Below, piece by piece: positions 4,967-29,475 of a stretch of DNA of 64,000 nt. The notes beneath the pieces are model-generated. The model did not search any database and was not told where the DNA came from. It saw nothing but the letters and a program-made list of their open reading frames with translations. The stretch comes from Actinotalea caeni (GTDB taxonomy: Bacteria > Actinomycetota > Actinomycetes > Actinomycetales > Beutenbergiaceae). Each line of letters opens with the position of its first letter. Position 1 is the first letter of the stretch. The translations under genes and the position numbers were made by a program. The stretch is taken from contig NZ_WNXX01000002.1 of the NCBI RefSeq assembly GCF_009733795.1, positions 124,001 to 188,000 of the forward strand, read 5' to 3'.

Positions 4967-5687
<721 letters not shown>

Positions 5688-5696
5688 CCGGTCGCG

Positions 5697-5739
5697 ACGG
5701 CCCGGGCCGGCGGCGCGCACCGGTCCCGGGCCGGGCCGT
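5697..5739. terminator. Hairpin between convergent livF and ABC-2 permease
   Basis: Perfect nine-base arms ACGGCCCGG (5697-5705) and CCGGGCCGT (5731-5739) enclose a GC-rich loop with further internal pairing. The 57-base space between two convergent stop codons suggests a bidirectional terminator. There is no U tract, as is common in this GC range. Confidence 0.5.
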
Positions 5740-5744
5740 GCGGG

Positions 5745-6536
5745 TCAGCGGCGCAGCCGCCGCGGGAAGGTGAGGGCGACCAGGAGCCCCGCGACCAGCA
5801 CGACGCCGACGCACCACACCAGCGCGAGCGGCCCCGCGGTGCCGATCTCGGTGCCGGTGAGCAGCCCGCGGATCGTCTCGATGACCGGCGTGATCGGCTG
5901 GTGCTCGGAGAACCCGCGCAGCCACGACGGCATCGTCTCCACCGGCACGAACGCGCTCGAGGCGTAGGGCAGGAACAGCAGCAGGAACCCGTAGCCGTTC
6001 GCGCTCTCGGGGCTGCCGGCGACCAGGCCGATGAAGGCGAACAGCGCGGTGATCGCCAGGATGTAGAGACCGACGACGCCCACCGCGCCGACCCACTCCA
6101 GCGGCGTGGCGTCCGGGCGGAAGCCGAGCGCCACCCCGACCCCGATGACGAGGCCGGTCGCCACGAGGTTGCGCAGCAGGCTCGCGACCACGTGCCCGAC
6201 GAGCACGGTGGCGCCCGCGATCGGCATCGTGCGGAACCGGTTGATCGCACCGGTCGTCACGTCCCGGTTGACCGACACCGCCACGCCCGAGGCGCCGAAG
6301 CCCGCGCAGGTGAGGATGATGCCGGGCACCACGTAGCTGAGGTAGGCGCCGGTCGGGTCGATCGCGCCGCCGAAGACGTAGGTGAACACGAGCATGAGCA
6401 GCACCGGCAGCAGCACGGCCATGAGCAGCGCCTCGCCGTCGCGCAGGTTCTGGCGCAGGCTGCGCTCGACGAACACGCCGGCGGCACGCAGGGCGCCCGC
6501 GCCGCGGCGGGCCGGGGGAGCGGTGAGCGTGGTCAT
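5745..6536 (-). CDS. ABC-2 type (DrrB-like) exporter permease
   Basis: 263 residues with six predicted membrane spans in the ABC-2 arrangement. Family marks include FVERSLRQNLRD near the N-terminus, INRFRTMPIAGATVLVG, and LLLFLPYASSAFVPVETMP before the last spans. It overlaps the upstream ATPase gene by four bases. With that ATPase it should form a daunorubicin-resistance-like exporter for a drug or lipid; the cargo is unknown. The divergent TetR gene is the likely local regulator. Confidence 0.88.
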   Translation of the reverse strand: MTTLTAPPARRGAGALRAAGVFVERSLRQNLRDGEALLMAVLLPVLLMLVFTYVFGGAIDPTGAYLSYVVPGIILTCAGFGASGVAVSVNRDVTTGAINRFRTMPIAGATVLVGHVVASLLRNLVATGLVIGVGVALGFRPDATPLEWVGAVGVVGLYILAITALFAFIGLVAGSPESANGYGFLLLFLPYASSAFVPVETMPSWLRGFSEHQPITPVIETIRGLLTGTEIGTAGPLALVWCVGVVLVAGLLVALTFPRRLRR

Positions 6537-7420
6537 GCGGCGACCTCCTTCTCGGTCGAGGTGGTGCGGTGCTGGGTGAGGGCGGTGAAGGCGTCCTCGA
6601 GGGTGGGCCTGCGCAGCTGCACGTGCAGGGCCGCGGTGTCGGGCTCGAGCCGGTCGAGGGCCGCGGCGAGCCCGGCGACCGTGCCGTCGGTCGTCAGCGT
6701 GCGGACCTCGGTCCCGTCGGCCTCGGTCAGCACGACCTCCTCGCCGCCGACGACGGCGGTCAGCTCGGCGGCCGTGCCCTCGGCGACGATCCGACCGCCT
6801 GCGAGCACGCCGATCCGGTCGGCCAGCGCCTCGGCCTCCTCGAGGTACTGGGTGGTGAGCAGGACGGTGGTGCCGGCTGTCGCCAGCTCGCGGACGTCGG
6901 CCCACAGCCGCCGCCGGCTCGCGGGGTCGAGGCCGGTCGTCGGCTCGTCGAGGAACAGCACGGCCGGCCGCTGGACGAGGCTCATCGCGAGGTCGACCCG
7001 GCGTGCGGTGCCGCCGGAGAGGGTGCGCACCAGCGTGTGCGCGACCGCACCGAGGTCGAAGGCCTCGACCAGCTCGGCCGCCCGGGACCGTGCGCGGGCG
7101 GCGTCGAGACCCAGCAGGCGTGCGACCACGACGAGGTTCTCGGTGACGGTGAGCAGCTCGTCCACCGCGGCGAACTGGCCGGTGACGCTGATGAGCCGGC
7201 GCACCGTGCGGCGCTGCGACAGCGGGACGCCGCAGATCCGGGCGGTGCCTCCGTCGGGTCGCAGCAGCGTCGTGAGGACGTTGACGAACGTCGTCTTCCC
7301 GGCGCCGTTCGGACCCAGCAGCGCGTAGACGCCGCTCGGGACGGTGAGGGACACGCCGTCGAGCACGACGGCGGATGCGTAGCTCTTGCGGATCGAGTCC
7401 ACCTCGATGGCGGGGGTCAT
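6533..7420 (-). CDS. ABC transporter ATP-binding protein (DrrA-like)
   Basis: 295 residues. Walker A GPNGAGKTT, Q-loop ISVTGQFAAVDE (the DrrA/CcmA pattern), signature LSGGTARR, Walker B VLFLDEPTTGLDP and H-loop replaced by Gln (LTTQYLEEAE), as is usual in this subfamily. A DrrA-type C-terminal extension follows (about residues 215-295). The start codon lies next to the operator region at 7433-7499 shared with the divergent TetR gene. Confidence 0.9.
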   Translation of the reverse strand: MTPAIEVDSIRKSYASAVVLDGVSLTVPSGVYALLGPNGAGKTTFVNVLTTLLRPDGGTARICGVPLSQRRTVRRLISVTGQFAAVDELLTVTENLVVVARLLGLDAARARSRAAELVEAFDLGAVAHTLVRTLSGGTARRVDLAMSLVQRPAVLFLDEPTTGLDPASRRRLWADVRELATAGTTVLLTTQYLEEAEALADRIGVLAGGRIVAEGTAAELTAVVGGEEVVLTEADGTEVRTLTTDGTVAGLAAALDRLEPDTAALHVQLRRPTLEDAFTALTQHRTTSTEKEVAA

Positions 7421-7432
7421 GCCGGCTCCGTT

Positions 7433-7499
7433 CTGTGTACAGGACTATCTGTTTATGGCACACACTGAGTATGGCATACACAGCGTGCGCTGTATACAG
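7433..7499. promoter_or_regulatory. Divergent promoter region with two CTGTRTACAG operators
   Basis: Two copies of a ten-base palindrome lie 57 bases apart: CTGTGTACAG at 7433-7442 and the perfect CTGTATACAG at 7490-7499. Between them is a direct repeat TATGGCAYACAC at 7454-7465 and 7470-7481, spaced 16 bases. The region is AT-richer than its surroundings and sits between the exporter genes and the TetR gene, the classic site for autoregulation and exporter repression. Confidence 0.7.
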
Positions 7500-7521
7500 T
7501 GATTGGGTGACCGAGGACGGG

Positions 7522-8460
7522 ATGCCGCGGACCGTCGCCGTGGCCTGGGGTGTGGCCGAGTTCCCGCAGCGCGGCCCGAAGCGCGAGCTGAGCCACGAGG
7601 GCATCGTCGACGCGGCGATCGAGATCGCCGACGCCGAGGGCCTCGACGCCGTGACGATGCAGCGCGTCGCCGCCTCGTTCGGCTTCACGACGATGGCGCT
7701 GTACCGCTACATCGCCAGCAAGGACGAGCTGCACCGGCTGATGCTCGACGCGGCGCTGCGCACCGAGGACGTCGGGGGAGTGCCCGACGACGACTGGCGC
7801 GCGGGCCTGCTCGCCTGGGCCGGCCTGCTGGCGGGCTGCTACCGCCGCCACCCGTGGGTGCTCGAGCTGCCGGTCGACTCCGACCTGCTGATCATGCCCA
7901 ACAACATGCGGGTCGTCGACGCGGGGCTGCGGGCGCTGCGCACGCTCCCGACGTCGCCGGAGGAGAAGCTGGGCGTCATCGTCGGCTGCACGGTGCTCGT
8001 GCGCGGCTTCGCGGGCGTGATGGACGAGATCACCGGCTACTCCAGCGCCACGGTCGCGGCGATCCGAGAGGTCGCCACCGCGGCGCGCTTCCCGCACCTG
8101 GCCCCGCTCGTCGCCTCCGGCGCCTACTTCGGCGCACCGCAGGAGGCGGCGCCCGACGACGACCTCGGCCCCGACCTGCGCTTCGCGCTCGAGACGTTCC
8201 TCGACGGCGTCGCGGCTCGTGCCGCGGCCGGCCCGCCGCCGGTGGCCGTGGACGCCGCGCCGGCCTCGCCGCGCGAGGCCTACGAGCGGGCCGAGGGCGC
8301 CTGGCGCGACGCCGTCGCGACCCGCAAGGCGACCGAGCAGCGGGTCAAGGAGCTCCACCGGCGCGAGGCGGAGGCGCAGCGTGCGCGCGACGCCGCCAAG
8401 GAGCTGATGAGGGCGGCCGAGAAGCTGGAGCGGCAGCGCGCCCGCGAGCAGGGCGGCTGA
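7522..8460 (+). CDS. TetR/AcrR family transcriptional regulator
   Basis: 312 residues from ATG 7522 (GAGGA at 7513-7517). Earlier in-frame starts (ATG 7471, GTG 7507) would place operator DNA inside the coding region, so 7522 is preferred but not certain. The N-terminal helix-turn-helix (VTMQRVAASFGFTTMALYRYI) is typical. The middle is the all-alpha ligand domain. The last 60 residues are rich in Arg, Glu and Ala and predict a coiled coil, an unusual C-terminal extension for TetR. Probable repressor of the divergent ABC-2 exporter. Confidence 0.88.
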   Translation: MPRTVAVAWGVAEFPQRGPKRELSHEGIVDAAIEIADAEGLDAVTMQRVAASFGFTTMALYRYIASKDELHRLMLDAALRTEDVGGVPDDDWRAGLLAWAGLLAGCYRRHPWVLELPVDSDLLIMPNNMRVVDAGLRALRTLPTSPEEKLGVIVGCTVLVRGFAGVMDEITGYSSATVAAIREVATAARFPHLAPLVASGAYFGAPQEAAPDDDLGPDLRFALETFLDGVAARAAAGPPPVAVDAAPASPREAYERAEGAWRDAVATRKATEQRVKELHRREAEAQRARDAAKELMRAAEKLERQRAREQGG

Positions 8461-8518
8461 GCGCCACCGGGTAGTCGTCCCCCTGCCTGCCGCTCACCCG
8501 GGCCGCTACCGTGCTCCG

Positions 8519-9976
8519 GTGACGTCACCCGAGCCCGCGCCGCAGCCTGCGCGCTACGCTGCCCCGTCGGGGGCGCCCCAGCCCGGCCCTGCGCCCGCCC
8601 CGACGCCGGCCCAGCCCGGCTACGGCGCACCCCAGCCCGGGTACGCCGCGCAGCCCGGCTACGGAGCGCAGCCCGCGCAGCCCGGCTACGGAGCGCAGCC
8701 CGGGTACGCCGCGCAGCCCGGCTACGGAGCGCAGCCCGCGCAGCCCGGCTACGGAGCGCAGCCCGGGTACACCGCGCAGCCCGGCTACGGTGCCCAGCCC
8801 GCCTACGCCGCCCAGCCGCCGCACCCGGTCGCGCCGAGCCCGGCCATGGCGCCGCCGGGCGCGGTCCCGTGGGCGACCCAGCGCAAGCGGCCGATCGTCC
8901 TCGAGATCGTGCTCGTGGTCCTCGGCGGCCTGCTCGCCTCGGCGTTCGTCGTCCTGATGGCGCTGGTGACGAGCGGGACCACCGTCGGGGTCGCCGTCGT
9001 GCTCGCGCTCGTGCCGCTGGTCACGATCGGCGCGCTCATCATGTGGGTCGACCGGTGGGAGCCCGAGCCGCGGTTCCTGCTCGTCGGGGCGTTCCTGTGG
9101 GGCGGCGGTGTCGCCGTCGCGGTCGCGAGCCTGCTCAACTCCGTCGTCGGGCCGGCGCTCGCCGGTGCGCTCGGCACCGGTCTCGACCCGGGCACCGCCT
9201 CGGCCGTGCTCGGCGCCCCGATCGTCGAGGAGGCGATGAAGGGCCTCGGGATCCTGCTGATCTTCCTCGTGCGGCGGCGCGAGTTCAACGGACCGCTCGA
9301 CGGCGCCGTCTACGGCGCGGTGGTGGCGCTCGGCTTCTCGGTCGTCGAGGACGTGCAGTACTTCGCGCTCAACGCCGAGGACATGGGCATGATCTTCGTG
9401 ATGCGGGCGCTGCTCAGCCCGTTCGGCCACCTCGTCTACTCGGTGCCGATGGGCATCGCGCTCGGCATCGCCTCGCGTCGGCGGTCCAAGGCCGCCTGGC
9501 TCTGGCTGTTCCCGCTCGGCTACCTCGCGGCGGTCGCGCTGCACATGGGCTGGAACGGCAGCCTCAGCTTCGCGTCCTCGTTCACCGACCTCGTCGCGAT
9601 CTTCGTGCTGCTCAACTGGCTCCCGCTCGCGCTGCTCGCGGGCATCGCGATCTGGCTGCGCCAGCGCGAGCAGCACGTCGTGGGGCGCCGGCTGCGCGAC
9701 TACGTACCGAGCGGCTGGCTCAGCGAGGCCGAGGTGCAGGCGCTGTCGTCGATGCAGGCCTGCCGCGCCGCGCGCCGGTGGGCGGCGGGCGTGGGCGCCA
9801 AGCCCGCGATGCGCGCCTACCAGCGCACCGCCGCACGGCTCGCCTACGCGCGCCAGGACCTCTACACCGGTCACGTCGCACGGCGCGCGCGGCAGGACGA
9901 GGCGCACCTGCTCGAGGAGCTGGCCCGCGCACGCGCCGAGGTGATGGCGCGCGCCACCCCGCGGCACGGCTACTGA
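8519..9976 (+). CDS. PrsW family glutamic-type intramembrane protease
   Basis: 485 residues, GTG start. A Pro/Gly/Tyr/Gln-rich N-terminal tail (about residues 10-105) precedes a multi-span membrane domain. PrsW motifs are present: EEAMKG (the EExxK pair), GFSVVEDVQYF, FGHLVYS and HMGWN, giving the conserved Glu, Glu-Asp and two His residues. PrsW family proteins cleave membrane-bound regulators such as anti-sigma factors; the target here is unknown. A TACCGT box at 8507-8512 sits exactly six bases before the GTG, so the mRNA is probably leaderless. Confidence 0.85.
   Translation: MTSPEPAPQPARYAAPSGAPQPGPAPAPTPAQPGYGAPQPGYAAQPGYGAQPAQPGYGAQPGYAAQPGYGAQPAQPGYGAQPGYTAQPGYGAQPAYAAQPPHPVAPSPAMAPPGAVPWATQRKRPIVLEIVLVVLGGLLASAFVVLMALVTSGTTVGVAVVLALVPLVTIGALIMWVDRWEPEPRFLLVGAFLWGGGVAVAVASLLNSVVGPALAGALGTGLDPGTASAVLGAPIVEEAMKGLGILLIFLVRRREFNGPLDGAVYGAVVALGFSVVEDVQYFALNAEDMGMIFVMRALLSPFGHLVYSVPMGIALGIASRRRSKAAWLWLFPLGYLAAVALHMGWNGSLSFASSFTDLVAIFVLLNWLPLALLAGIAIWLRQREQHVVGRRLRDYVPSGWLSEAEVQALSSMQACRAARRWAAGVGAKPAMRAYQRTAARLAYARQDLYTGHVARRARQDEAHLLEELARARAEVMARATPRHGY
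8641..8766 (+). repeat. Two identical 63-bp tandem repeats inside the PrsW-like gene
   Basis: Positions 8641-8703 and 8704-8766 are base-for-base identical, and a third diverged copy begins at 8767. Each unit encodes 21 residues built from QPGYGAQP/QPGYAAQP blocks. The frame is kept, so copy-number change would only lengthen or shorten the cytoplasmic tail. Confidence 0.9.
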
Positions 9977-15735: not shown

Positions 15736-15784
15736 TTGACGCGCGTTCAACACGTGTCACACTGCCGGTCAACACGGGTTGAAC
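15736..15784. promoter_or_regulatory. Operator pair and promoter of the nucleoside uptake operon
   Basis: Two imperfect dyads with TTGAC/TTCAA arms lie just before the nucleoside hydrolase: TTGACGCGCGTTCAA (15736-15750) and GTCAACACGGGTTGAAC (15768-15784). The first contains a -35-like TTGACG, with CACACT at 15758-15763 as a possible -10 (16-base spacer). They look like sites for the LacI regulator encoded at the operon's end (20998-22050). The assignment is inferred from position. Confidence 0.5.
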
Positions 15785-15796
15785 AATGGAGTGAAC

Positions 15797-16747
15797 ATGC
15801 GCGTGATCCTCGACACCGACATGGGTATGGGTGTCCCCGGGACCGAGATCGACGACGGCTTCGCGCTCGCGCTGCTGCTGTCGGAGAGCGACACGATGAC
15901 GACCGAGCTCGTCACGTCGGTCAACGGCAACATCGACGTGGAGAGCGGGACGTACCTGAGCCTGGAGCTGCTGCAGCGGCTGGGCCGGCCCGAGATCCCG
16001 GTCGTGCGCGGTGCGGCAGCGCCGCTCGTGGAGCCGGAGAAGGTCCGGGGCGCCCCGGAGGCCGTGCGCCGCGAGTTCGGGCACCACACGCCCGCGCCGG
16101 GCTACGCCGCCGCCGAGATCGCGCGCCGCGTCGTCGAGTCGCCGGGCGAGATCACGATCATCGCGATCGGCCCCCTGACCAACGTCGCCGCCGCCATCGC
16201 GCTCGACGAGCGGGTGGCGAGCAGCGTCAAGGAGATCGTCGTCATGGGCGGCGTCTTCCTCGGCCGGCCGCCGTCGCTGGCGATGCCGGGCGAGTTCAAC
16301 TGGTGGGTCGACCCGCACGCCGCACGCGCCGTCGTCCGCAGCGGCGCGCCGCTGCGCCTCGTCGGGCTCGACGTCACGCTGCAGGTCCGCCTCACCCGCG
16401 AGCACGCGGCCGCGATGGCCGCCGGCACCGGCGCATTCGGCCCGTTCGCGGGCGAGTGCACGATCGCCTGGCTCGACAAGCTCGGGCGCGAGAACCCGGG
16501 CGACCCCGAGGCCGGCGAGGCCTGCGCGATGCACGACTCGCTCGCCGTCGCCGCGCTGTCGCGCCCCGACCTGCTGACCTGGGCGCCCGCCCACGTCGAC
16601 GTCGTCACCGACGAGGTCGGTCGCGGTGTCGCGATCACGGACCTGCTCACCCGCAGCGACGCGCCCGCGCCGAACGCCCAGATCGCCGTCGACGTCGACG
16701 TCGAGGGCTTCACGTCCTACTTCCTCGAGCGCATCACCGCGCTCTGA
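15797..16747 (+). CDS. Inosine/uridine-preferring nucleoside hydrolase
   Basis: 316 residues from ATG 15797 (GGAG at 15788-15791). Splits ribonucleosides to base and ribose. The N-terminal calcium-binding Asp cluster appears as ILDTDMGMGVPGTEIDDGFAL, an expanded version of the usual DxDxxxDD. Downstream are ITIIAIGPLTNVAAAI, GGVFLGRP and the conserved FNWWVDPHAA (family: N..xDPxAA). Placed first in an operon with a sugar-type ABC importer and a ribokinase, it fits nucleoside salvage. Confidence 0.9.
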   Translation: MRVILDTDMGMGVPGTEIDDGFALALLLSESDTMTTELVTSVNGNIDVESGTYLSLELLQRLGRPEIPVVRGAAAPLVEPEKVRGAPEAVRREFGHHTPAPGYAAAEIARRVVESPGEITIIAIGPLTNVAAAIALDERVASSVKEIVVMGGVFLGRPPSLAMPGEFNWWVDPHAARAVVRSGAPLRLVGLDVTLQVRLTREHAAAMAAGTGAFGPFAGECTIAWLDKLGRENPGDPEAGEACAMHDSLAVAALSRPDLLTWAPAHVDVVTDEVGRGVAITDLLTRSDAPAPNAQIAVDVDVEGFTSYFLERITAL

Positions 16748-16812
16748 GACCGATCGGGGCCGCAGGAGGCCCAGCGGCACCGCCGCCGCACGCACCACAT
16801 CGAGAGGAAATC

Positions 16813-18132
16813 ATGAACAGACGACACGTCCTCGCCGCAGCATCGGGCATCGCCGCACTCGCCCTCGTCGGCGCGTGCTCCTCCGGGGGCTCGGGCGACA
16901 GCGGCGACTCCGGCGACGCCGACTGGTCGATCCCGGACACCGACCCGACCGCGACGATCCAGGTCCTCGGCCACCAGGACGCCGACGGCATCCAGGAGGT
17001 CATCGACGCCTTCAACGAGGACCACCCGACGATCACCGTCGAGTACGAGTCGGTGCCCTTCGACCAGCTCAACTCGGTCCTCGACGCGCGCATCGGCAAC
17101 CAGGACGGCAACCCGGACGTGTTCTGGGCCGACCAGCCCCGCATCCCGGCGCTCGCCGCGCGCGGCTACATGACCGACATCACCGACCAGTTCGCCGCCG
17201 ACACCGGCGTGTGGGACCCGGCGCCGCTGGCGTCCGGCCAGTACGACGGGCGCATGTGGGCGGTCCCGATCGCGAACTCCACCCAGCTGCTCTACTACAA
17301 CGTCGAGCTCGTCGAGGCCGCGGGCGACCCGCTGCCGTCGGCTGCCATCGAGGACCGCATGACCTGGGAGGAGGTCACCGAGCGGGCGGCCAACGCCGTC
17401 GAGGCCGGTGCCACCAACGGGCTGCTGTTCGGCCAGGTGAACCGCTACTACCAGCTGCAGCCGCTGCCGATGTCGCTCGGCGGCTCCGCGGGCGGCACGG
17501 GCGACGACCTGCTGACGCCGGACGTCACCAGCGAGCCCTGGGTGCAGGCGATGGAGTGGTACGGCGAGCTCTTCGCCGAGGGCCTCTCACCGCTGGGCGT
17601 GACGCCGGAGCAGTCCGACGCCGAGTTCCTCACCGGCAACACCGCCTACATGGTGCAGGGGCCGTGGCTGCTGCCGAAGCTCACCGACGCCGAGTTCGAG
17701 TGGGGCGTCGCGCCGCACCCGTACTTCGAGGGCGGTGAGGTCGTGACGCCGACCGGCTCCTGGTCGCTCGCGATGAGCGCGTTCTCCGACGAGCGGGAGG
17801 CCGCCGCGATCTTCATGCGCTGGATGTCGGTCGAGCACGGCGGCGGCTACGCGGCCAACTACGCCTCGCCCGAGCTGCCCGCCAGCCCCGAGGGCAAGGA
17901 GCAGTACTTCCAGCGCGACGTGTTCGACTCCGACGCAGGCCGGCTCGCCGCCGAGATCATCGACTTCGAGACCTCCAACACCGCCGTCCCGCGTCTGCAG
18001 ACGGTCGGCTTCGTGGAGTTCGAGGAGATCATCGGCCGCGCCTTCTCCGACGTCGCCAACGGTGCCGACCCGGCAGCCGCGCTCGAGTCCGCGTCGTCGG
18101 AGCTCGAGACGGCCTGGGCCCAGTACCGCTGA
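16813..18132 (+). CDS. Sugar/nucleoside ABC transporter substrate-binding lipoprotein
   Basis: 439 residues, ATG with GAGAGGAAA upstream. Signal peptide ends in lipobox LVGAC (Cys about residue 23), then a Ser/Gly/Asp linker. The body is the family 1 extracellular solute-binding fold: NEDHPTITVEYESVPFDQL, NPDVFWADQPRIPALAARG, MWAVPIANSTQLLYYN. It probably delivers a nucleoside or ribose to the two permeases that follow, as judged from the hydrolase and kinase in the operon. Confidence 0.9.
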   Translation: MNRRHVLAAASGIAALALVGACSSGGSGDSGDSGDADWSIPDTDPTATIQVLGHQDADGIQEVIDAFNEDHPTITVEYESVPFDQLNSVLDARIGNQDGNPDVFWADQPRIPALAARGYMTDITDQFAADTGVWDPAPLASGQYDGRMWAVPIANSTQLLYYNVELVEAAGDPLPSAAIEDRMTWEEVTERAANAVEAGATNGLLFGQVNRYYQLQPLPMSLGGSAGGTGDDLLTPDVTSEPWVQAMEWYGELFAEGLSPLGVTPEQSDAEFLTGNTAYMVQGPWLLPKLTDAEFEWGVAPHPYFEGGEVVTPTGSWSLAMSAFSDEREAAAIFMRWMSVEHGGGYAANYASPELPASPEGKEQYFQRDVFDSDAGRLAAEIIDFETSNTAVPRLQTVGFVEFEEIIGRAFSDVANGADPAAALESASSELETAWAQYR

Positions 18133-18152
18133 CGCCTGACGCCACCGCACTG

Positions 18153-19124
18153 ATGAGTCGTTCGTCGTCCGCCGTCAGCGCGGCTCCCTCCGGGGCGCAG
18201 CGGCGCCTGGGTGCCTCACCGGCACCCAGGCGCCAGCTCCGCCGCCGCAAGGAGCTGTTCTGGGCCGTCGTGTTCCTCGCGCCGGCTCTCGTCGCCATCG
18301 GGTCGCTCCGGATCGCCCCGACCATCAGTGCGGTGGTGTCCAGCCTGTACTCCGGGTTCCCGGGCGGCGTCCGCCCGCCGGTGTTCAGCGGGTTCGACAA
18401 CTACCTGGACCTCTGGGGGAACGAGGCCTTCCGCGAGACGGTGCTGCGCACCGTCGTGTTCAACGTGATCATCAACCCGCTGCAGGTCGCCATCGCGCTG
18501 CTCGTGGCGGTGCTGATGACGCGCAGGATCGCCGCGCCCGGGCTGTGGCGCACGCTGGTGTTCATCCCGGCTGTCGTCCCGATCGTCGGTTCGAGCATCG
18601 TGTGGTCGATCGCGCTGCGGCCCGACGGGCCGGTCAACGCGATCATCACCGCGCTCGGCGGGCGGCCCCAGCCGTTCCTCACCTCGCCCGACCAGGCGCT
18701 CGCCTCGATCATGCTGATCGCCTCGTGGATCGGCATCGGCTACTGGATGATCTTCCTGATCTCCGGGCTGCGCGCGATCCCGAGCGAGTACTACGAGGCC
18801 GCGAAGCTCGACCGCGCCGGTCCGATCCGCACGTTCTTCCAGATCACGATCCCGCTGCTGAAGCGGCCGCTGCTGTTCGTGCTGGTCGCGGACACCGTCG
18901 CCAACTTCGTGCTGTTCGTGCCGATCCAGATGCTCACCAACGGCGGCCCCCAGAACAGCACCACGATGCAGATGTTCAACGCCTACCGCACGACCTACAC
19001 GTACTCGAGCAAGAACCTCGGGGCGGCGGAGGTCGTCATCCTCACGATCATCATGCTCGTCTTCGTCGCGCTGCAGTTCCGGCTGCTCCGCGACGACGAC
19101 CGGGCGGCGAAGGGGACGTCATGA
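18153..19124 (+). CDS. Sugar ABC transporter permease (MalF/UgpA type)
   Basis: 323 residues. Six membrane segments after a basic 35-residue tail. The coupling-helix motif is EYYEAAKLDRAGPIRTFFQITIPLLKRP (EAA-x3-G, about residue 215). It forms a heterodimer with the next gene product, whose start overlaps its stop by four bases. There is no ATPase gene in the operon, so a shared MsiK-like ATPase encoded elsewhere is expected. Confidence 0.92.
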   Translation: MSRSSSAVSAAPSGAQRRLGASPAPRRQLRRRKELFWAVVFLAPALVAIGSLRIAPTISAVVSSLYSGFPGGVRPPVFSGFDNYLDLWGNEAFRETVLRTVVFNVIINPLQVAIALLVAVLMTRRIAAPGLWRTLVFIPAVVPIVGSSIVWSIALRPDGPVNAIITALGGRPQPFLTSPDQALASIMLIASWIGIGYWMIFLISGLRAIPSEYYEAAKLDRAGPIRTFFQITIPLLKRPLLFVLVADTVANFVLFVPIQMLTNGGPQNSTTMQMFNAYRTTYTYSSKNLGAAEVVILTIIMLVFVALQFRLLRDDDRAAKGTS

Positions 19125-19972
19125 CGGCGGTGCGTCGGCGCACGCGCTCGGAGCGTCGCTCGATCCTGCTGACCGCGCTCGCGGTCGTGGTCGCGGCCCT
19201 GTTCATCCTCCCGGCGCTGTGGCTGCTGTCGGGTTCGCTGCGGCCCAGCAACGAGATCTTCGGGACGCTGTCGCCGGTCACGTGGCGCACCCTGGTGCCC
19301 AGCGAGGTCAGCCTCGGCAACTACCTGGCGCTGCTCTCGGGGCCGTTCGGGCGGTCGATCCTCATCTCGTTCGCGGTCTGCTTCCTCACCGTGGCGATCG
19401 GGCTGGTGGTCTCGGCGCTGGCCGCCTACGCGCTGTCGGTGCTGCGGTTCCGCGGCCGCGGCGCGGTGTTCGCGTTCGTCGTCATCAGCTTCATGGTGCC
19501 GTTCGAGGCGATCGCGATCCCGCTGTCGCAGCTGTTCAGCGGGTGGGGGCTCACCAACACCCTCCTCGGGCTGGTGCTGCCGGGCATCGGCAACGGGCTG
19601 GCGATCTTCAACCTGCGCCAGCACTTCCTGTCGATCCCCACCTCCTACCGGGAGGCGGCCACGGTCGACGGCGCGGCCGAGCCGCGCGTGCTGTGGTCGG
19701 TCTACCTGCCGCTCGGTGGTGCGGCGCTGGCCAACTCGGCGCTGCTGATCTTCCTCGGCCAGTGGTCGGCCTACCTGTGGCCGCTGCTCGTCGTGTCCGA
19801 CTCCAGCCTCCAGGTCGCCCCGGTGGCCCTCGCGCGTACCTTCGGGGAGTACACCTTCGACTTCGGCCAGAACTTCGCCGGTGCGATCGTGCTGTCGGTC
19901 GTGCCCGCCCTGATGATGTTCGTCCTGCAGCGCTTCTTCGGAGGCCTCGAGATCGCGAGTGGAGAGAAGTGA
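19121..19972 (+). CDS. Sugar ABC transporter permease (MalG/UgpE type)
   Basis: 283 residues. Six membrane segments and the coupling motif SYREAATVDGAAEPRVLWSVYLPL. Starts at ATG 19121, overlapping the previous stop (ATGA), and ends overlapping the GTG of the ribokinase gene (GTGA), so the three genes are translationally coupled. Confidence 0.92.
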   Translation: MTAVRRRTRSERRSILLTALAVVVAALFILPALWLLSGSLRPSNEIFGTLSPVTWRTLVPSEVSLGNYLALLSGPFGRSILISFAVCFLTVAIGLVVSALAAYALSVLRFRGRGAVFAFVVISFMVPFEAIAIPLSQLFSGWGLTNTLLGLVLPGIGNGLAIFNLRQHFLSIPTSYREAATVDGAAEPRVLWSVYLPLGGAALANSALLIFLGQWSAYLWPLLVVSDSSLQVAPVALARTFGEYTFDFGQNFAGAIVLSVVPALMMFVLQRFFGGLEIASGEK

Positions 19973-20898
19973 GCGGGTCGAGCAGCGCGCCCATCGTCGT
20001 CGTCGGGTCCGCCAACCAGGACTACCTGGTGCGGGTGCCGGCCGTGCCCACGGCGGGCGAGACGACGCTGGCGCACACGATGCGCCGCAGCCCCGGCGGC
20101 AAGGGCGCGAACCAGGCGGTGGCCGCCGCGCGCCTGGGTGCCGAGGTGCGGTTCGTCGGGTGCGTCGGCGACGACGACGACGGCGCGCTGCTGCTGCGCG
20201 AGCTACGGGCCGAGGGGGTCACCACCACCGACGTCGAGATCATCGGGCGCGAGCCCACCGGCATCGCGCTGGTGCTCGTCGACGACTCCGGCGAGAACTC
20301 GATCGTCGTCGTCCCGGGTGCGAACTTCGCGCTCTCCGAGTCGCGCGTGCGGCGCGTCCTCGGCCGGCAGCCGGAGGGCGCCGTCGTCGTCACGCAGGGG
20401 GAGGTGCGCTCGGAGATCGTCGCCGCCACAGCCCAGGGCGCCCACGACGCGGGCGTGCGTCTCGTGCTCAACCTGGCGCCGTACGTCCCGCTGCCCGACG
20501 AGGTGCTCGCACCGTGCGACCCGCTGGTCGTCAACGAGTCGGAGGCGGCGGCGCTGACCGGCCGCGAGGTCTCGGCGACGAGCGAGGCCCTGGAGACGGC
20601 GCGCGACCTGCTCGGCAGGTGCCGCTCGGTGGTCATCACGCTGGGTGCCCGCGGTGCGGTCTGGGCCGACGAGACCGGGTCGGGCCACGTCGCCGCGCCC
20701 GCCGTCGCGGACATCGTCGACACCACCGGCGCCGGCGACGCCTTCACGGGCGCGCTCGCGGTCCGGCTCGCCGCGGGCGCCACGCTGCCCGAGGCCGTGG
20801 AGCTGGGCGTGCGCGCGGGCTCGTTCGCGGTGACCGGGTCCGGTGCGCAGACCTCCTACCCCCGTGACACCGATCTCGAGGCCGCGCACCGGCGATGA
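19969..20898 (+). CDS. rbsK: Ribokinase (PfkB family)
   Basis: 309 residues, GTG start. Phosphorylates ribose (or a related pentose) with ATP. PfkB signature 1 RSPGGKGANQAVAAARLG near residue 45 and signature 2 DTTGAGDAFTGALAV near residue 253, whose GAGD holds the catalytic Asp; NLAPY and VNESEAAALTG are ribokinase-like. It would trap the ribose released by the nucleoside hydrolase at the head of this operon. Confidence 0.88.
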   Translation: MSGSSSAPIVVVGSANQDYLVRVPAVPTAGETTLAHTMRRSPGGKGANQAVAAARLGAEVRFVGCVGDDDDGALLLRELRAEGVTTTDVEIIGREPTGIALVLVDDSGENSIVVVPGANFALSESRVRRVLGRQPEGAVVVTQGEVRSEIVAATAQGAHDAGVRLVLNLAPYVPLPDEVLAPCDPLVVNESEAAALTGREVSATSEALETARDLLGRCRSVVITLGARGAVWADETGSGHVAAPAVADIVDTTGAGDAFTGALAVRLAAGATLPEAVELGVRAGSFAVTGSGAQTSYPRDTDLEAAHRR

Positions 20899-20997
20899 GC
20901 CGCCGACGATGAGCACGGCCCGCGTGGGCCGGTCTTGCTACGGTCGGCACGTGGTGGTCGCCGCCACGGCACGAGCGGCGTTGTCTGGAGGTGCGAC

Positions 20998-22050
20998 GTG
21001 GCGGTGACGAGGGCGGACGTGGCGCGCCGCGCCGGCGTCTCGCCCGCGCTCGTCTCCTACGTCATCAACGGCGGCCCGCGGCCGGTCTCCGAGCAGGCAC
21101 GACGCCGGATCGAGGCGGCGATCGAGGCGCTCGGGTACCGCCCGAACGCGATCGCCTCGGCGCTGCGCGGCGGCATGACCCGCACGATCGGGCTGCTCAT
21201 CCCCAGCCCCGCGAACCCGTTCTTCGCCGAGATGGCCGAGGGGTTCGTCGTCGAGCTCTCCCGCCGGGGCAACACGCTCTCGATCGGCATCACCGACGAC
21301 AACCCCGACCGCGAGGCGCTGTACGTGCGGTCGTTCATCGACCGCCGGGTGGACGGCCTCGTCACCGCGTCGTCGCGGGTGGCCCGTACCGTCGAGCGCA
21401 CCGCGACCGACACGCTGCCGATGGTCGTCGTCGACCGCGTGGAGGAGCGGCTCACCGAGCGGCTGTCGAGCGTGCACATGGACAACCCGCGGATGGCGAT
21501 GCTCGCCGTCGAGCACCTGCAGGCGCACGGCCACACGCGGATCGGGTGCATCGCCGGGCCGTGGCCGCTCGTGGTCTCCGACGACCGTGTCGCGGGCTGG
21601 CGGGCGCAGCAGCAGCAGGTGGGCGCCGATGCCGGCGACGCCTGGGTCGAGCACGCCGAGTTCACCGCGGCCGGCGGCCGCGACGCCGCCTACGCGATGC
21701 TCGGTCCGCGGGCGCGCCGGGGCCGGCAGCGCCCGACGGCGCTGCTCGTCACCTCCGACGTGCAGGCGATCGGCGTCCTGACGGCGTGCGCCGAGCTGGG
21801 GCTGCGCGTCCCCGACGACGTCGCGATCGTCGCCGTCGACGGCACCGCCGCGGCCCGCTACACGCAGCCGCCGCTCACGACGATCCGGCAGCCGCTGACC
21901 GAGATGGTGCGGACCGCCGTCGGGCACCTGCTCGACACGATCGCCGACCCGAGCAGCGAGCCCGCGCACACCGTGCTCGAGGGCAACCTCGTGATCGGGT
22001 CCTCGTGCGGGTGCGCGGTGGGCGGCGGTCAGCCCAGCAGCTCGCGGTAG
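20998..22050 (+). CDS. LacI family transcriptional regulator (nucleoside operon)
   Basis: 350 residues from GTG 20998, with GGAGG at 20987-20991. N-terminal HTH VTRADVARRAGVSPALVSYVINGGPRPVSEQ and hinge helix, then a periplasmic-binding-like sensor domain (TIGLLIPSPANPFFAEMAEGF). A TACGGT box at 20937-20942 could drive its own transcript. Probable ribose- or nucleoside-responsive repressor of the operon ahead of it. Its 3' end overlaps the convergent glycosyltransferase gene by 22 bases. Confidence 0.9.
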   Translation: MAVTRADVARRAGVSPALVSYVINGGPRPVSEQARRRIEAAIEALGYRPNAIASALRGGMTRTIGLLIPSPANPFFAEMAEGFVVELSRRGNTLSIGITDDNPDREALYVRSFIDRRVDGLVTASSRVARTVERTATDTLPMVVVDRVEERLTERLSSVHMDNPRMAMLAVEHLQAHGHTRIGCIAGPWPLVVSDDRVAGWRAQQQQVGADAGDAWVEHAEFTAAGGRDAAYAMLGPRARRGRQRPTALLVTSDVQAIGVLTACAELGLRVPDDVAIVAVDGTAAARYTQPPLTTIRQPLTEMVRTAVGHLLDTIADPSSEPAHTVLEGNLVIGSSCGCAVGGGQPSSSR

Positions 22051-23886: not shown

Positions 23887-25293
23887 ATGATGACCGACAC
23901 GAGCGGCGACGCGCAGGACTACCGGATCGAGCACGACACGATGGGGGAGGTCCGCGTCCCCAGGGCGGCGAAGTACCGCGCGCAGACGCAGCGCGCCGTC
24001 GAGAACTTCGCGATCTCCGGCGTCGGGCTCTCGCGGCACCACATCGCCGCGCTCGCGCAGATCAAGCGCGCCGCGGCCATCGCCAACGCCGAGCTCGGGG
24101 TCATCGACCAGGCCAAGGCCGAGGCGATCGTCGCCGCCGCGGACCGCGTGATCGTCGGCGAGCTGGACGACCACTTCCCGGTCGACGTGTTCCAGACCGG
24201 CTCCGGCACGTCGTCGAACATGAACACCAACGAGGTGATCGCGACGCTGGCGACCGAGGCCGGCACCGAGGTGCACCCCAACGACCACGTCAACGCCAGC
24301 CAGTCGAGCAACGACGTGTTCCCGGCGTCGATCCACATCGCGGCGACCGAGGCGGTCATCCGCGAGCTGCTGCCCGGCCTGGAGACGCTCGCGGCGTCGC
24401 TGGAGGCGAAGCGGGACGAGTTCGCCGACGTCGTCAAGGCCGGCCGCACCCACCTCATGGACGCCACGCCCGTCACCCTGGGCCAGGAGTTCGGCGGCTA
24501 CGCCCAGCAGGTCCGCAACGGCATCGCGCGCGTGCAGGCGGCGCTGCCGCGCCTCGCGGAGCTGCCGCTGGGCGGCACCGCGGTCGGCACCGGGATCAAC
24601 ACCCCGCCGGGGTTCCCGCAGCGGGTGATCGCGCTGGTCGCGGAGAACACCGGGCTGCCGGTGACCGAGGCGCCGAACCACTTCGAGGCGCAGGGTGCGC
24701 AGGACTCGCTGGTCGAGGCCAGCGGCGCGCTGCGCACCGTCGCGGTGTCGCTGGTGAAGATCTGCAACGACCTGCGCTGGATGGGCTCGGGCCCGCGCAC
24801 GGGCCTCGGCGAGATCGCGCTCCCCGACCTGCAGCCCGGCTCCTCGATCATGCCGGGCAAGGTCAACCCGGTCATGCCCGAGGCCACGCTGATGGTGTGC
24901 GCCCAGGTGATCGGCAACGACGCGACGATCGCGTTCGCGGGTGCCTCCGGCTCGTTCGAGCTCAACGTCATGCTGCCGGTGATGGCCCGGAACCTGCTGG
25001 AGTCGATCACCCTGATCGCCAACGCCTCCCGCGCGCTCGCGGGCAGGTGCGTCGACGGCATCACCGCCAACGTCGAGCGCGCCCGCCAGCTGGCGGAGTC
25101 CTCGCCGTCGATCGTCACCCCGCTCAACCGCGTGATCGGGTACGAGGCGGCCGCGAAGATCGCCAAGCACTCGGTCGCGAAGAACATCACGATCCGCGAG
25201 GCGGTGCTCGACCTCGGCTACGTCGAGCGCGGCGAGATCACGACCGAGCAGCTGGACGCGGCGCTCGACGTGATGTCGATGACGCACCCGTAG
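23887..25293 (+). CDS. fumC: Class II fumarate hydratase
   Basis: 468 residues (ATG 23887; the second ATG 23890 is equally possible). Interconverts fumarate and malate in the TCA cycle; iron-independent homotetramer. Conserved regions: [46 protein letters not shown] and the superfamily signature [11 protein letters not shown]. Length and ends are normal. It stands alone, divergent from a small membrane protein and convergent with a LacI gene only ten bases away. Confidence 0.95.
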
Positions 25294-25303
25294 GGGCGGC
25301 GCC

Positions 25304-26323
25304 TCAGGGCGTCGGCGTCGAGCGCAGCGACGACCCGCGCACGCGCAGCTCGAAGTCGGCCACGAGCAGGCGGGGCGGCTGGTCGTCGCCGCCGATCCGT
25401 TCGACCAGCATGCGCACGGCCTCGCGCGCGATCTGGGCCGTGCCCGGTGCGATCGAGGACAGCGCGGGCTCGTGGAACCGCGCGTCCTCGACGTCGTCGA
25501 ACCCGACGACCGCGACCTCCGACGGCACGGCGATCCTGCGGATGTACAGCTCGTGCAGGGCGCCGAAGGCCAGCGAGTCGTTCATCGCGAAGACGCCGTC
25601 GAAGTCCACGCCCGCGTCCAGCAGCTGGGCGATCCCGTCCTCGCCCTTCTGGCGCGACCACGGGTTCTCCTCGACCACGAGGCCCGGGTCGAAGGGGATC
25701 CCGGCCTCCTCGAGGCCCTCGGTGTACCCCTGGAGCCGCAGCGTCGGCGAGCCCATGCCCTCGTCGAGCCGTGCGCCGAGCGCCACGATCCGGCGGCACC
25801 CCTGCTCGGCGAGGTGGACCGTCGCGGCGCGCGCACCCTCCACGTTCGCCATCGTCACGTGGTCCACGGGCGCGCCGAAGATCCGCTCCCCGAGGAGCAC
25901 CAGCGGGTAGTCGACGGCGAGCAGGTCGCCCTCGTCCGGCTCGAGACCCAGCGGGAAGAAGAGCAGCCCGTCGGTGATGCGGCGCTGGAGGCTGTCGAGC
26001 GACGTCAGCGCGCCCTCGCGGGTCGCGCCCGTGCGCTCGATCAGGACACGCAGGCCGACCTTCTCCGCCTCGGAGACGATGACGTCGGCGAACTCGGCGA
26101 AGTACGGGTGCGCCAGCTCCGGGACGGCGAGCCCGATCATCCCCGTCCGCCCCTTGCGCAGGTGGCTGGCGGAGACGTTCAACCGGTAGCCGAGCTCGGC
26201 GATCGCGGCCTCGACGCGCTCGCGCGTCTCCGGGCGCAGGTAGCGGTAGCCGTTGAGCACGTTCGAGACGGTCTTGACCGACACACCTGCTCGGTCGGCG
26301 ACGTCGCGCATGGTGACCGCCAC
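25304..26323 (-). CDS. LacI family transcriptional regulator (orphaned sugar operon)
   Basis: 339 residues from GTG 26323, preceded by AAGGAAGG at good spacing; GTG 26329 and ATG 26311 are alternatives. HTH VTMRDVADRAGVSVKTVSNVLNGYRYLRPE, hinge, then sensor domain (MIGLAVPELAHPYFAEFADV). It lies downstream of the remains of a sugar ABC transporter on the same strand, which it presumably regulated through the operator at 27470-27490. It appears intact although its target genes are not. Confidence 0.9.
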   Translation of the reverse strand: MAVTMRDVADRAGVSVKTVSNVLNGYRYLRPETRERVEAAIAELGYRLNVSASHLRKGRTGMIGLAVPELAHPYFAEFADVIVSEAEKVGLRVLIERTGATREGALTSLDSLQRRITDGLLFFPLGLEPDEGDLLAVDYPLVLLGERIFGAPVDHVTMANVEGARAATVHLAEQGCRRIVALGARLDEGMGSPTLRLQGYTEGLEEAGIPFDPGLVVEENPWSRQKGEDGIAQLLDAGVDFDGVFAMNDSLAFGALHELYIRRIAVPSEVAVVGFDDVEDARFHEPALSSIAPGTAQIAREAVRMLVERIGGDDQPPRLLVADFELRVRGSSLRSTPTP

Positions 26324-26356
26324 GAGCACATCCTTCCTTACGCGTGGGACCGCGTC

Positions 26357-26388
26357 GGGCCGGGACCGCGGGATCGCGGTCCCGGCCC
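26357..26388 (-). terminator. Strong hairpin between the binding-protein remnant and lacI
   Basis: A perfect 14-base stem (26357-26370 with 26375-26388) closed by GGAT. It lies 30 bases beyond the stop of the binding-protein fragment (minus strand) and before the LacI gene, so it would have ended the transporter transcript. Confidence 0.75.
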
Positions 26389-26418
26389 TGCCCGCCGGCG
26401 CCGGCGGCCGCGGTGCGA

Positions 26419-26553
26419 CTACCTCTCGAAGTCCCGCTCGGCCTGCGCCTGCGCCTCCGCGAGGGCCGTGGCCGAGCGGCGCGACGCAGCGCCGGGGCGG
26501 CCGCAGGGTGAACACCGCCTCGAAGGGCACCATGAGGCCGCCGATCGCTGTGG
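26419..26553 (-). pseudogene. C-terminal remnant of a sugar-binding protein
   Basis: The minus strand reads IGGLMVPFEAVFT and, one frame over, RRSATALAEAQAQAERDFER followed by TAG (26421-26419). Together these match the usual end of family 1 extracellular solute-binding proteins (VPxFxAVF... LAEAQAQAE). The two halves need a frameshift near 26490-26505, and everything upstream of about 26553 is lost. This is a decayed stub of a former carbohydrate-binding protein gene. Confidence 0.6.
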
Positions 26554-27171
26554 TGTCGTCGCGCTCGCGGCGGTGCTGGGCTTCCACCCGGGCCCGGACG
26601 GGATCTGGTACGACCGGCTGTTCTGGGAGTCGCTGACCCACACGCTCCAGTTCACCCTCATGTCGACGCCGCTCATCATCGGGCTCGGGCTGGCGATGGC
26701 GCTCGCCGTCAACAACCCGCGGCACCGCGGCGGGAAGATCTACCAGGTCGCCTTCTTCGTCCCCTACGTGCTGCCGATCTCGGTCGCCACGCTCATCTGG
26801 ACGAACGTGCTCAGCCCGGGTCGCGGCATCCTCGCCGAGATGCTCGTGCGGTTCGGGGTCGAGCCGATCTCGTGGCTGGGCGACCAGCGGTACGCGATGA
26901 TCGCGATCGTCGTGATGACGGCGTGGTGGACCGTCGGCTTCAACCTCGTGATGTTCTCGGCGGGGCTGCAGGACATCGACCCCACGCTCTACGAGGCGGC
27001 GATGCTGGACGGTGCCGGTGCGCGGCAGCGCTTCCTGCACGTGACGCTCCCAGGTCTGCGGCACGTCATGGCCCTGGTCCTGGTCATGCAGGTGATCGCC
27101 GGCTTCACCGTCTTCGGCCAGGTCAACATCATGACGAGCGGCGGCCCCGGCAACGCCACCCGCACGCTCGC
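26551..27171 (+). pseudogene. Inverted middle segment of a sugar ABC permease gene
   Basis: About 206 residues read on the plus strand, from VVALAAVLGFHPGPDG to GGPGNATRTLA. They are the central and late part of a MalF-type permease, with the coupling motif LYEAAMLDGAGARQRFLHVTLPGL. There is no start codon context and no proper C-terminus. The matching N-terminal 98 or so residues are on the opposite strand, beginning at 27457. The segment therefore seems to have been inverted within the gene, and the final 40 or so residues are gone. Confidence 0.8.
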
Positions 27172-27457
27172 GCAGCGCGCGGTAGGCGACGAGGGCGGAG
27201 ACCACGACGACGGCCGCGCGCAGCTGCCACAGGTGGTCGAGCCCCCACTCCATGTCCGTGCCCCACAGCATCCGGACGTAGTTCTCGATCCCGACCCACT
27301 CGGGGGCGAGACCCAGCAGGTCCCAGTCGTGGAGGCTCATCCACACGGCCTGGACGAGGGGGTAGAGCAGGAAGAGGGCGTACACCGCGAGGAAGGGGGC
27401 GACGAACGACATGCTGATGCCCGGTCCCGCGCGACCGACGGGGCGGGTACGCCGCAT
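27165..27457 (-). pseudogene. N-terminal fragment of the same sugar ABC permease
   Basis: From ATG 27457 (GGAGGG at 27463-27468) the minus strand encodes a normal MalF-type N-terminus: MRRTRPVGRAGPG, a first membrane segment APFLAVYALFLLYPLVQAVW, SLHDWDLLG, VGIENYVRML, and a second segment VVVVSALVAYRAL. Homology stops near 27165, where the antisense middle segment begins. Start, ribosome site and promoter look intact, so a truncated product may still be made. Confidence 0.8.
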
Positions 27458-27469
27458 TGCGCCCTCCAA

Positions 27470-27529
27470 CAGTTCATCGATGTACTACTGGAATGGCGGG
27501 AAAGTATCCCTCCCGGACGGCGGTGTCAA
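27470..27529 (-). promoter_or_regulatory. Promoter (TTGACA-17-TACTTT) and LacI-type operator of the broken permease gene
   Basis: On the minus strand -35 TTGACA (27529-27524) and -10 TACTTT (27506-27501) are 17 bases apart. Just downstream, 27470-27490 is a partial dyad with CAGT/ACTG ends and a CATCGATG centre, placed as a LacI-family operator would be. This is one of the best consensus promoters in the window, yet it drives a disrupted gene. Confidence 0.75.
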
Positions 27530-27775
27530 TCGTCCGGGGCGGACGGCGCCCGGACCGTCACCGGTCCCCGGCGGGGACATCCGTCGGGCTGATGACCAGC
27601 GATGTCGCCCGGGTGGCGCGGTGCGCGTGGTCGCGCCGTCGAGCAGGCGTCGTCGCCACCACCGGCCGCGCCCGTGCGCAGACGCGTGCGGTGGCTCGTG
27701 CCCGTGCGCTCGCGACAGCCTGCGAGCCGGCGACGAAGGACCCCGGCCGGGGCGACGCTGGCCCGACCCGGGTCG
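27530..27775. other. Non-coding stretch, no recognisable feature
   Basis: Between the sugar transporter promoter and the stop of the TIM-barrel isomerase gene I see no convincing gene, dyad or RNA. Base composition is as GC-rich as the surroundings. It may be debris from the adjacent rearrangement. Confidence 0.4.
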
Positions 27776-28633
27776 TCAGGCGCGGGTCAGCAGGTCGCCG
27801 AAGCCCAGCTCGGTCAGGTGGCGGTAGGAGAGGGCGACGGCGTCGAACTCGTCGCGCTCGTACGTCGCGTCCTGCTCGACGAAGCAGTGCGCGGCGCCGA
27901 TCTCGACGGCGGTGCGCACGACGTCGGCCATCGCGAGCGAGCCCTCGCCGACCTCGGCGAACTGCGGGGTGAACAGCGCCTCGCGCACCGGACCGGGGTC
28001 ACCCGCGCGGAGCTTCTCGTAGGCCTGCGCCGACGGCAGCGCGACCCGGTAGTCCTTGAGGTGCACGAGCGCGACGCGGTCGCCGTAGTGGCGCAGCGTC
28101 GTCACCGGGTCTAGCCCGCCGCGGAAGATCCAGTGCACGTCGAGCTCCAGCCGCAGCGAGGGCGCGGTCTCGAGGATGAGGTCGAGCACACGGGTGCCGT
28201 CGACGCGCGCGAACTCGATCGCGTGGTTGTGGAAGCACAGCGTGACGCCGCGGTCGGCCAGCACCGGCGCAGCCGCCTCGGCGCGCCGCGCCGCCTCTCG
28301 CAGGGTGTCGGCGTTCTCGTACGCCTCCGGCCCGAACATCCCGATCCGCACGAACTCCGCGCCCAGCGTGACGGCCGCCTGCGCCACGCCCTCGGGGTCC
28401 TGCGTGAGCGCGTGGCCGTCCGGTGCGGTGAGACCGGCGGTGGTCGCGTCCACCGCGACCCCGTGCTCGGCCGACGCGGCCGCGATCTCGGCGACGTTCT
28501 CCGCCGTCATCGGCACCGCGGAGATCTCGATCGAGCGGTAGCCGATCGCGGCCACCCGCCGGAACGTCTCGGTGATGCCGAGCTCCGCGAAGCGGTTGCG
28601 CAGCGTGTAGCCCTGGACCCCGATGCTCGTCAT
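27776..28633 (-). CDS. Sugar phosphate isomerase/epimerase (xylose isomerase-like TIM barrel)
   Basis: 285 residues from ATG 28633. AP-endonuclease-2-type TIM barrel with metal-binding residues in CFHNHAIEF, LRLELDVHWIF, VHLKDYR and CFVEQDATY (His, Glu/Asp, His, Glu). Such enzymes act on sugars or inositols; the reaction here is unknown. It begins right of the broken sugar transporter and may once have worked with it. A TAGCGT box seven bases before the ATG suggests a leaderless mRNA. Confidence 0.85.
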   Translation of the reverse strand: MTSIGVQGYTLRNRFAELGITETFRRVAAIGYRSIEISAVPMTAENVAEIAAASAEHGVAVDATTAGLTAPDGHALTQDPEGVAQAAVTLGAEFVRIGMFGPEAYENADTLREAARRAEAAAPVLADRGVTLCFHNHAIEFARVDGTRVLDLILETAPSLRLELDVHWIFRGGLDPVTTLRHYGDRVALVHLKDYRVALPSAQAYEKLRAGDPGPVREALFTPQFAEVGEGSLAMADVVRTAVEIGAAHCFVEQDATYERDEFDAVALSYRHLTELGFGDLLTRA

Positions 28634-29329: not shown

Positions 29330-29475
29330 TGCACACGCACCCCGGAGCCAGGGGAAGTCGGTCGAAACCCGACGCTGACCCGCAACCGTGGATCGCGCCG
29401 ACGCGCGATGAGCCGGATCGCCTGACCGGGGTGGGAGGACACCACCGCCGAGGTCTGCGGCCGGGCCCGACCAGC
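29330..29475 (+). promoter_or_regulatory. Cobalamin (B12) riboswitch
   Basis: The leader contains the conserved cobalamin-riboswitch core: GCCAGGGGAAGTCGGT from 29347, AAACCCGACGC, and GCTGACCCGCAACCGT ending at 29389, then the B12 box AGCCGGATCGCCTG at 29411-29424. A short CCCGCGGG/CCCGCGGG hairpin follows at 29477-29497 before the first gene and could be the expression platform. CACAAT at 29313-29318 is a plausible -10. It should shut off the downstream operon when B12 is plentiful. The exact ends are approximate. Confidence 0.93.

Follow-up and report, generated by a model that had tools for sequence, protein, structure and literature searches.

Remains of a LacI-linked carbohydrate ABC importer cassette, probably dismantled by deletion and inversion, in Actinotalea caeni

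In a 64,000-nucleotide stretch of the Actinotalea caeni genome, which is the window analysed here and to whose numbering all coordinates refer unless a relative's locus is named, an intact LacI-type regulator is followed by pieces of sugar importer genes that lie in conflicting orientations. This raises the question whether the locus is a damaged operon, a functional rearrangement or an artefact of assembly. A previous sequence-only reading had proposed that a sugar ABC importer operon with a LacI regulator was broken by an internal inversion and by deletions, with the start of a permease on the minus strand set against the middle of the same permease on the plus strand, and then a stub of the binding protein on the minus strand. 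Our analysis very probably identifies the locus as a dead carbohydrate ABC importer cassette, presumably acquired horizontally, which was wrecked by deletion and inversion and left an orphan LacI behind.

The structure was defined by a blastn comparison of the window with the intact cassette of Cellulomonas alba MW4 (locus L078), which yielded four aligned blocks in the broken region and bore out the arrangement of permease start, permease middle and stub; four further short C. alba matches (33-108 bp) fall elsewhere in the window. The first block (25309-26458, corresponding to L078 10256-9067 with 82% identity) covers the LacI gene and the C-terminus of the binding protein. The LacI-family regulator is intact on the minus strand (25304-26329, exact start codon uncertain, Pfam domains LacI and Peripla_BP_3), and the C-terminal stub of the sugar-binding protein, also on the minus strand (26419-26458), has kept its own TAG stop. 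The second block is a sliver of permease 2 on the minus strand (26503-26544, encoding GGLMVPFEAVF), which matches L078 7181-7140 with 86% identity over 42 bp (E 7e-7). The middle of permease 1 follows on the plus strand (26563-27170, possibly extending to about 26545) and matches L078 5991-6598 with 84% identity in the opposite relative orientation; it carries a BPD_transp_1 match (Pfam, E 3.2e-15, profile positions 2-140 of 184). The last block (27186-27485, L078 5930-5632, 79%) comprises the start of permease 1 and the promoter region. Within it, this blastn block together with a protein alignment defines an N-terminal fragment of permease 1 on the minus strand (27186-27457, ATG start at 27457), for which Pfam reports no permease family. 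Where a complete importer would have two whole permeases and a whole binding protein, the locus holds fragments of each, and, if the reversed orientation of the middle piece is taken into account, their order is colinear with the intact operon of the relatives, as in a remnant of that operon.

Since the 42-bp sliver of permease 2 separates the inverted piece from the stub, three new joints have to be assumed rather than two. They are located by the edges of the blastn blocks between the inverted middle and the sliver (J1, 26545-26562), between the sliver and the binding-protein stub (J2, 26459-26502), and between the N-terminus of permease 1 and the far end of the inverted middle (J3, 27171-27185, position ambiguous within 15 bp). 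A divergence of 14-21% from C. alba across the surviving pieces blurs the joints, and the unaligned stretches of 44, 18 and 15 bp are too short for an insertion sequence. Without a counterpart here are L078 6599-7139 (541 bp), L078 7182-9066 (1885 bp) and, at the resolution of blastn, up to 60 bp at L078 5931-5990, so that about 2.5 kb has been lost from permease 1 (C-terminus), permease 2 and the binding protein. The sequence-only reading was thus correct in regarding the C-terminus of the permease and most of the binding protein as gone, but permease 2, which it had counted as missing, is not wholly absent.

The proposed inversion and deletions are supported by the layout in relatives that have kept the operon. 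Four relatives were examined closely, namely those with the three best of at least 80 loci found and G021. The closest intact relative among the matches listed is C. alba MW4, in which residues 8-205 of the permease middle are matched with 89% identity, and it contains the whole cassette in unbroken order, with permease 1 at 5659-6729, permease 2 at 6716-7639, the binding protein at 7694-9106 and LacI at 9224-10282 of L078, LacI being followed by a GH51-like arabinofuranosidase gene (product names read from the translations). Permease 1 is continuous in all four relatives, as an open reading frame in C. alba, G021 (L029) and Timonella senegalensis (L079) and as one tblastn match in Tessaracoccus sp. 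OS52 (L080). The four share the order permease 1, permease 2 and binding protein with LacI adjoining, which in G021 reads as LacI, binding protein, permease 2, permease 1, whereas in T. senegalensis and Tessaracoccus sp. OS52 LacI lies on the other side and on the other strand. Where both the N-terminal and the middle part of the permease were matched, which applies to five of eight loci, each pair lies on the same strand and in order; two of the remaining three have no permease match and one no N-terminal match. The unbroken gene order therefore appears to be ancestral, judged by these sequence comparisons. The surviving pieces resemble C. alba with 79-86% nucleotide identity, but the operon is intact in the relatives, whereas here it shows three joints, one inversion and a loss of about 2.5 kb. 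The homologous importers of T. senegalensis (L079, 9157-11895) and G021 (L029, 5647-7539) lie beside glycoside hydrolases other than GH51, read as beta-galactosidase or glucuronidase-like, and the sugar taken up may therefore not be the same in all hosts.

The broken arrangement itself was found in no other genome searched. In a family search of 24 genomes including the own genome (E up to 1e-15), 16 were matched and, the own genome aside, no match listed extends past the permease middle into another piece. A query spanning J3 matched seven of 396 genomes of the order, the own genome included, and the own genome was the only one of the 396 found to have permease sequence that is continuous through this joint. 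C. alba, which is taken to be identical with one genome of that set (G382) and is not counted as a second intact relative, matched the two halves on opposite strands and some 0.6 kb from each other, as expected for the intact layout. By tblastn, three other J3-matching loci (L187, L188, L189) encode both parts on one strand and one (L186) the middle only. A candidate carrier of the joint, G323, shows a 69-bp match of 79% identity that crosses J3 by nine bases; its locus encodes neither permease part (tblastn), and the match is therefore taken as a chance similarity of GC-rich DNA.

The draft state of the 4.0-Mb genome (49 contigs) and the finding of the joints in no other genome searched speak for an assembly error, in which fragments of an operon still intact on the chromosome were wrongly joined. 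Against this stands that three separate false joints would be required, that the locus sits within a contig of 303 kb (C22), and that the missing 2.5 kb did not turn up elsewhere in the assembly (completeness 99.99), with the best 40 candidates scored per search. The search for the missing permease and binding-protein parts, which had been suggested earlier, gave nothing beyond short paralogue-like matches of 70-86% identity among the best 40 candidates scored, namely two for the lost part of permease 2 and the binding protein (at most 95 bp) and three for the other lost part (at most 92 bp); likewise, with L078 3500-12100 as query and again the best 40 candidates scored, the own genome yielded the pieces already described here besides matches at the level of paralogues. 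The region as a whole has seven short or weak matches elsewhere in the genome (27-166 bp, 68-96%, best 40 candidates scored), so that there is no long repeat at the joints to explain a misjoin. Taken together, the three joints, the loss that is not found elsewhere and the lack of such a repeat make a misassembly unlikely. A reversible switch within the permease gene, that is, phase variation by an intragenic inverton, is a further explanation to be weighed, as such elements reportedly occur (Chanin et al., 2024, cited in PMC11892184) and the locus resembles them in having an inversion inside a coding sequence, here an internal gene segment inverted according to blastn. However, flipping the segment back would not restore permease 1, because its C-terminus is missing. 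Invertons are defined in PMC11892184 by flanking inverted repeats of 10-40 nt, and such repeats are not found at the breakpoints: the two regions have in common no exact inverted word longer than 7 nt, a length reached or surpassed in 800 of 2000 equally spaced random pairs, and none of 13 pairs of inverted-repeat arms lies at both breakpoints. In the nearest pair (I5, 21 nt, 76%) the second arm occupies 27126-27146, at least 24 bp inside the inverted piece. With no inverted repeat linking the breakpoints, a phase-variation switch is very improbable.

It would also be conceivable that the rearrangement created a new gene, in which the permease start, a translated antisense stretch and LacI are read in one frame as a membrane-tethered LacI under its own operator. 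The minus-strand frame from 27457 to 25304 is indeed open over 717 residues, and the permease 1 start, the permease 2 sliver and LacI are each in their native frame. However, long antisense frames are common at the GC content of this DNA (73.6% in the window), the antisense strand of the intact permease 1 of C. alba also contains an open reading frame of 402 amino acids, a strong hairpin precedes LacI, and the joint was found in no other genome searched, all of which makes a fusion gene very improbable. The open frame is nevertheless of practical importance, since gene callers may wrongly lengthen LacI on account of it; in annotation, no transporter should be named here and the LacI gene should not be extended.

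Returning to the dead cassette, the age of the break was assessed from the differences to C. alba. The inverted middle shows 95 differences in 202 codons, distributed over the three codon positions as 16/10/69, and no stop, compared with 156 differences in 339 codons for LacI (36/28/92, no stop, amino acid different in 60 of the 339 aligned codons) and 62 differences in 90 codons for the N-terminal fragment (18/12/32). Positions 1 and 2 together thus account for 26 of 95 differences in the middle, 64 of 156 in LacI and 30 of 62 in the N-terminal fragment. With L079, L080 and L029 used in turn as outgroups, the amino-acid changes unique to the window as opposed to C. alba number 2 v 7, 4 v 4 and 6 v 4 in the middle piece, 4 v 3, 6 v 6 and 1 v 7 in the N-terminal fragment, and 10 v 7, 10 v 11 and 9 v 10 in LacI. 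The inverted middle therefore has no excess of amino-acid change and no visible decay, in a test that is weak for few neutral changes. Measured against the divergence of the two lineages, that of the window and that of C. alba, the break thus seems to be young, most clearly from the inverted piece, and the earlier suggestion of a recent event agrees with the third-position bias of the differences in this piece. The flatter codon-position pattern of the N-terminal fragment, in which nine of 14 window-specific changes fall at positions 1 and 2 with outgroup L079, does not by itself indicate recency and could reflect either poor conservation of the region or some decay.

The regulatory parts had been described as still sharp, which holds for some of them. 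LacI is intact, and the near-palindrome AGTTCATCGATGTACT at 27471-27486, an operator-like element of the LacI-family type, has no second exact copy in the own genome; at the corresponding position of C. alba there is a version with three mismatches (chance expectation mean 0.02). Elsewhere in the genome there is one site with two mismatches, on contig C33; it lies within a response-regulator-like reading frame and was rejected as a second LacI target. Between the stub and LacI, a strong GC-rich hairpin with a 14-bp stem is present on the minus strand (26357-26388, z -4.3), with a similar hairpin before LacI in C. alba (z -4.5), but it is without a T tail, and the scan for T-tailed terminators found none. 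Nor does the promoter pass the consensus scan, which found no full promoter; by eye, the promoter region of the lost operon (27457-27540, minus strand) offers a perfect TTGACA (27524-27529) at a spacing of 15 nt from a weak -10 element, GATACT, of which the TTGACA and the GATA core are common to C. alba. LacI would accordingly be an orphan regulator here, controlling, together with the operator and the promoter region, no working transporter.

The cassette lies at a variable site (25291-27789) between fumC and a gene that reads as a TIM-barrel sugar isomerase/epimerase-like protein, where the two congeners compared have quite different gene sets, one a different LacI with an NMT1-like ABC cluster (G002), the other a dehydrogenase and a glucoamylase-like gene (G001). 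C. alba belongs to another family of the same order in the genome set used, and to the Cellulomonadaceae in NCBI. The two large cassette blocks are 82-84% identical to C. alba, the N-terminal block 79%, which is close to the 78% of fumC, and fumC is 87% identical to that of a congener. The higher identity of the cassette than of fumC, the other genes in the congeners and the lower GC content of the broken region (70.3% vs 73.6% in the window) favour horizontal acquisition at this variable site, which we regard as probable on the basis of identity, site occupancy and GC rather than a tree. In the same window, the plus strand at 15779-22050 holds a cluster that looks intact and comprises genes for a nucleoside hydrolase, a binding protein, two permeases, a ribokinase and a LacI (translations read).

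The following course of events would be the simplest way to account for the present structure. The cassette would have arrived horizontally beside fumC, two or three double-strand breaks would have occurred inside it, and these would have been sealed by end joining, with the 0.6-kb piece of permease 1 religated in reverse and about 2.5 kb lost. A deletion would also have brought the sliver of permease 2 up against the stub of the binding protein, and one or more events may have been involved. In bacteria, non-homologous end joining is carried out by Ku and LigD (PMC5124664). The joints without long repeats and the losses at the joints resemble what this pathway would leave, and the presence of a Ku gene on contig C45 (one match, E 6.4e-53) fits end joining. 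A 37-bp match of 89% to contig C23 was considered as the filler source for J2; it is GC-rich and was taken as chance.

The imported sugar was possibly an arabino-oligosaccharide, as the GH51-like gene beside LacI in C. alba suggests. On contig C19 of the own genome, genes for LacI, a binding protein, two permeases and GH51 form a cluster that looks intact, and contig C47 has a GH51-like gene adjoining GH27-like and GH3-like genes; given these clusters, the cell may have redundant capacity. The locus offers a clean and young example of the death of a probably horizontally gained uptake cassette, in which the structural genes appear to have been destroyed in a single step or a small number of steps and the regulator, the operator and the promoter region remain; it fits ordinary recent gene loss and alters no general picture. 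No title among the literature matches listed deals with this locus, which is not to claim that it is absent from print. Further along the window, 29352-29443 on the plus strand gives a cobalamin-riboswitch-like match of 28.5 bits, just below the Rfam gathering score of 31.5, upstream of genes that read as a secreted protein and an ABC/ECF-type transporter.
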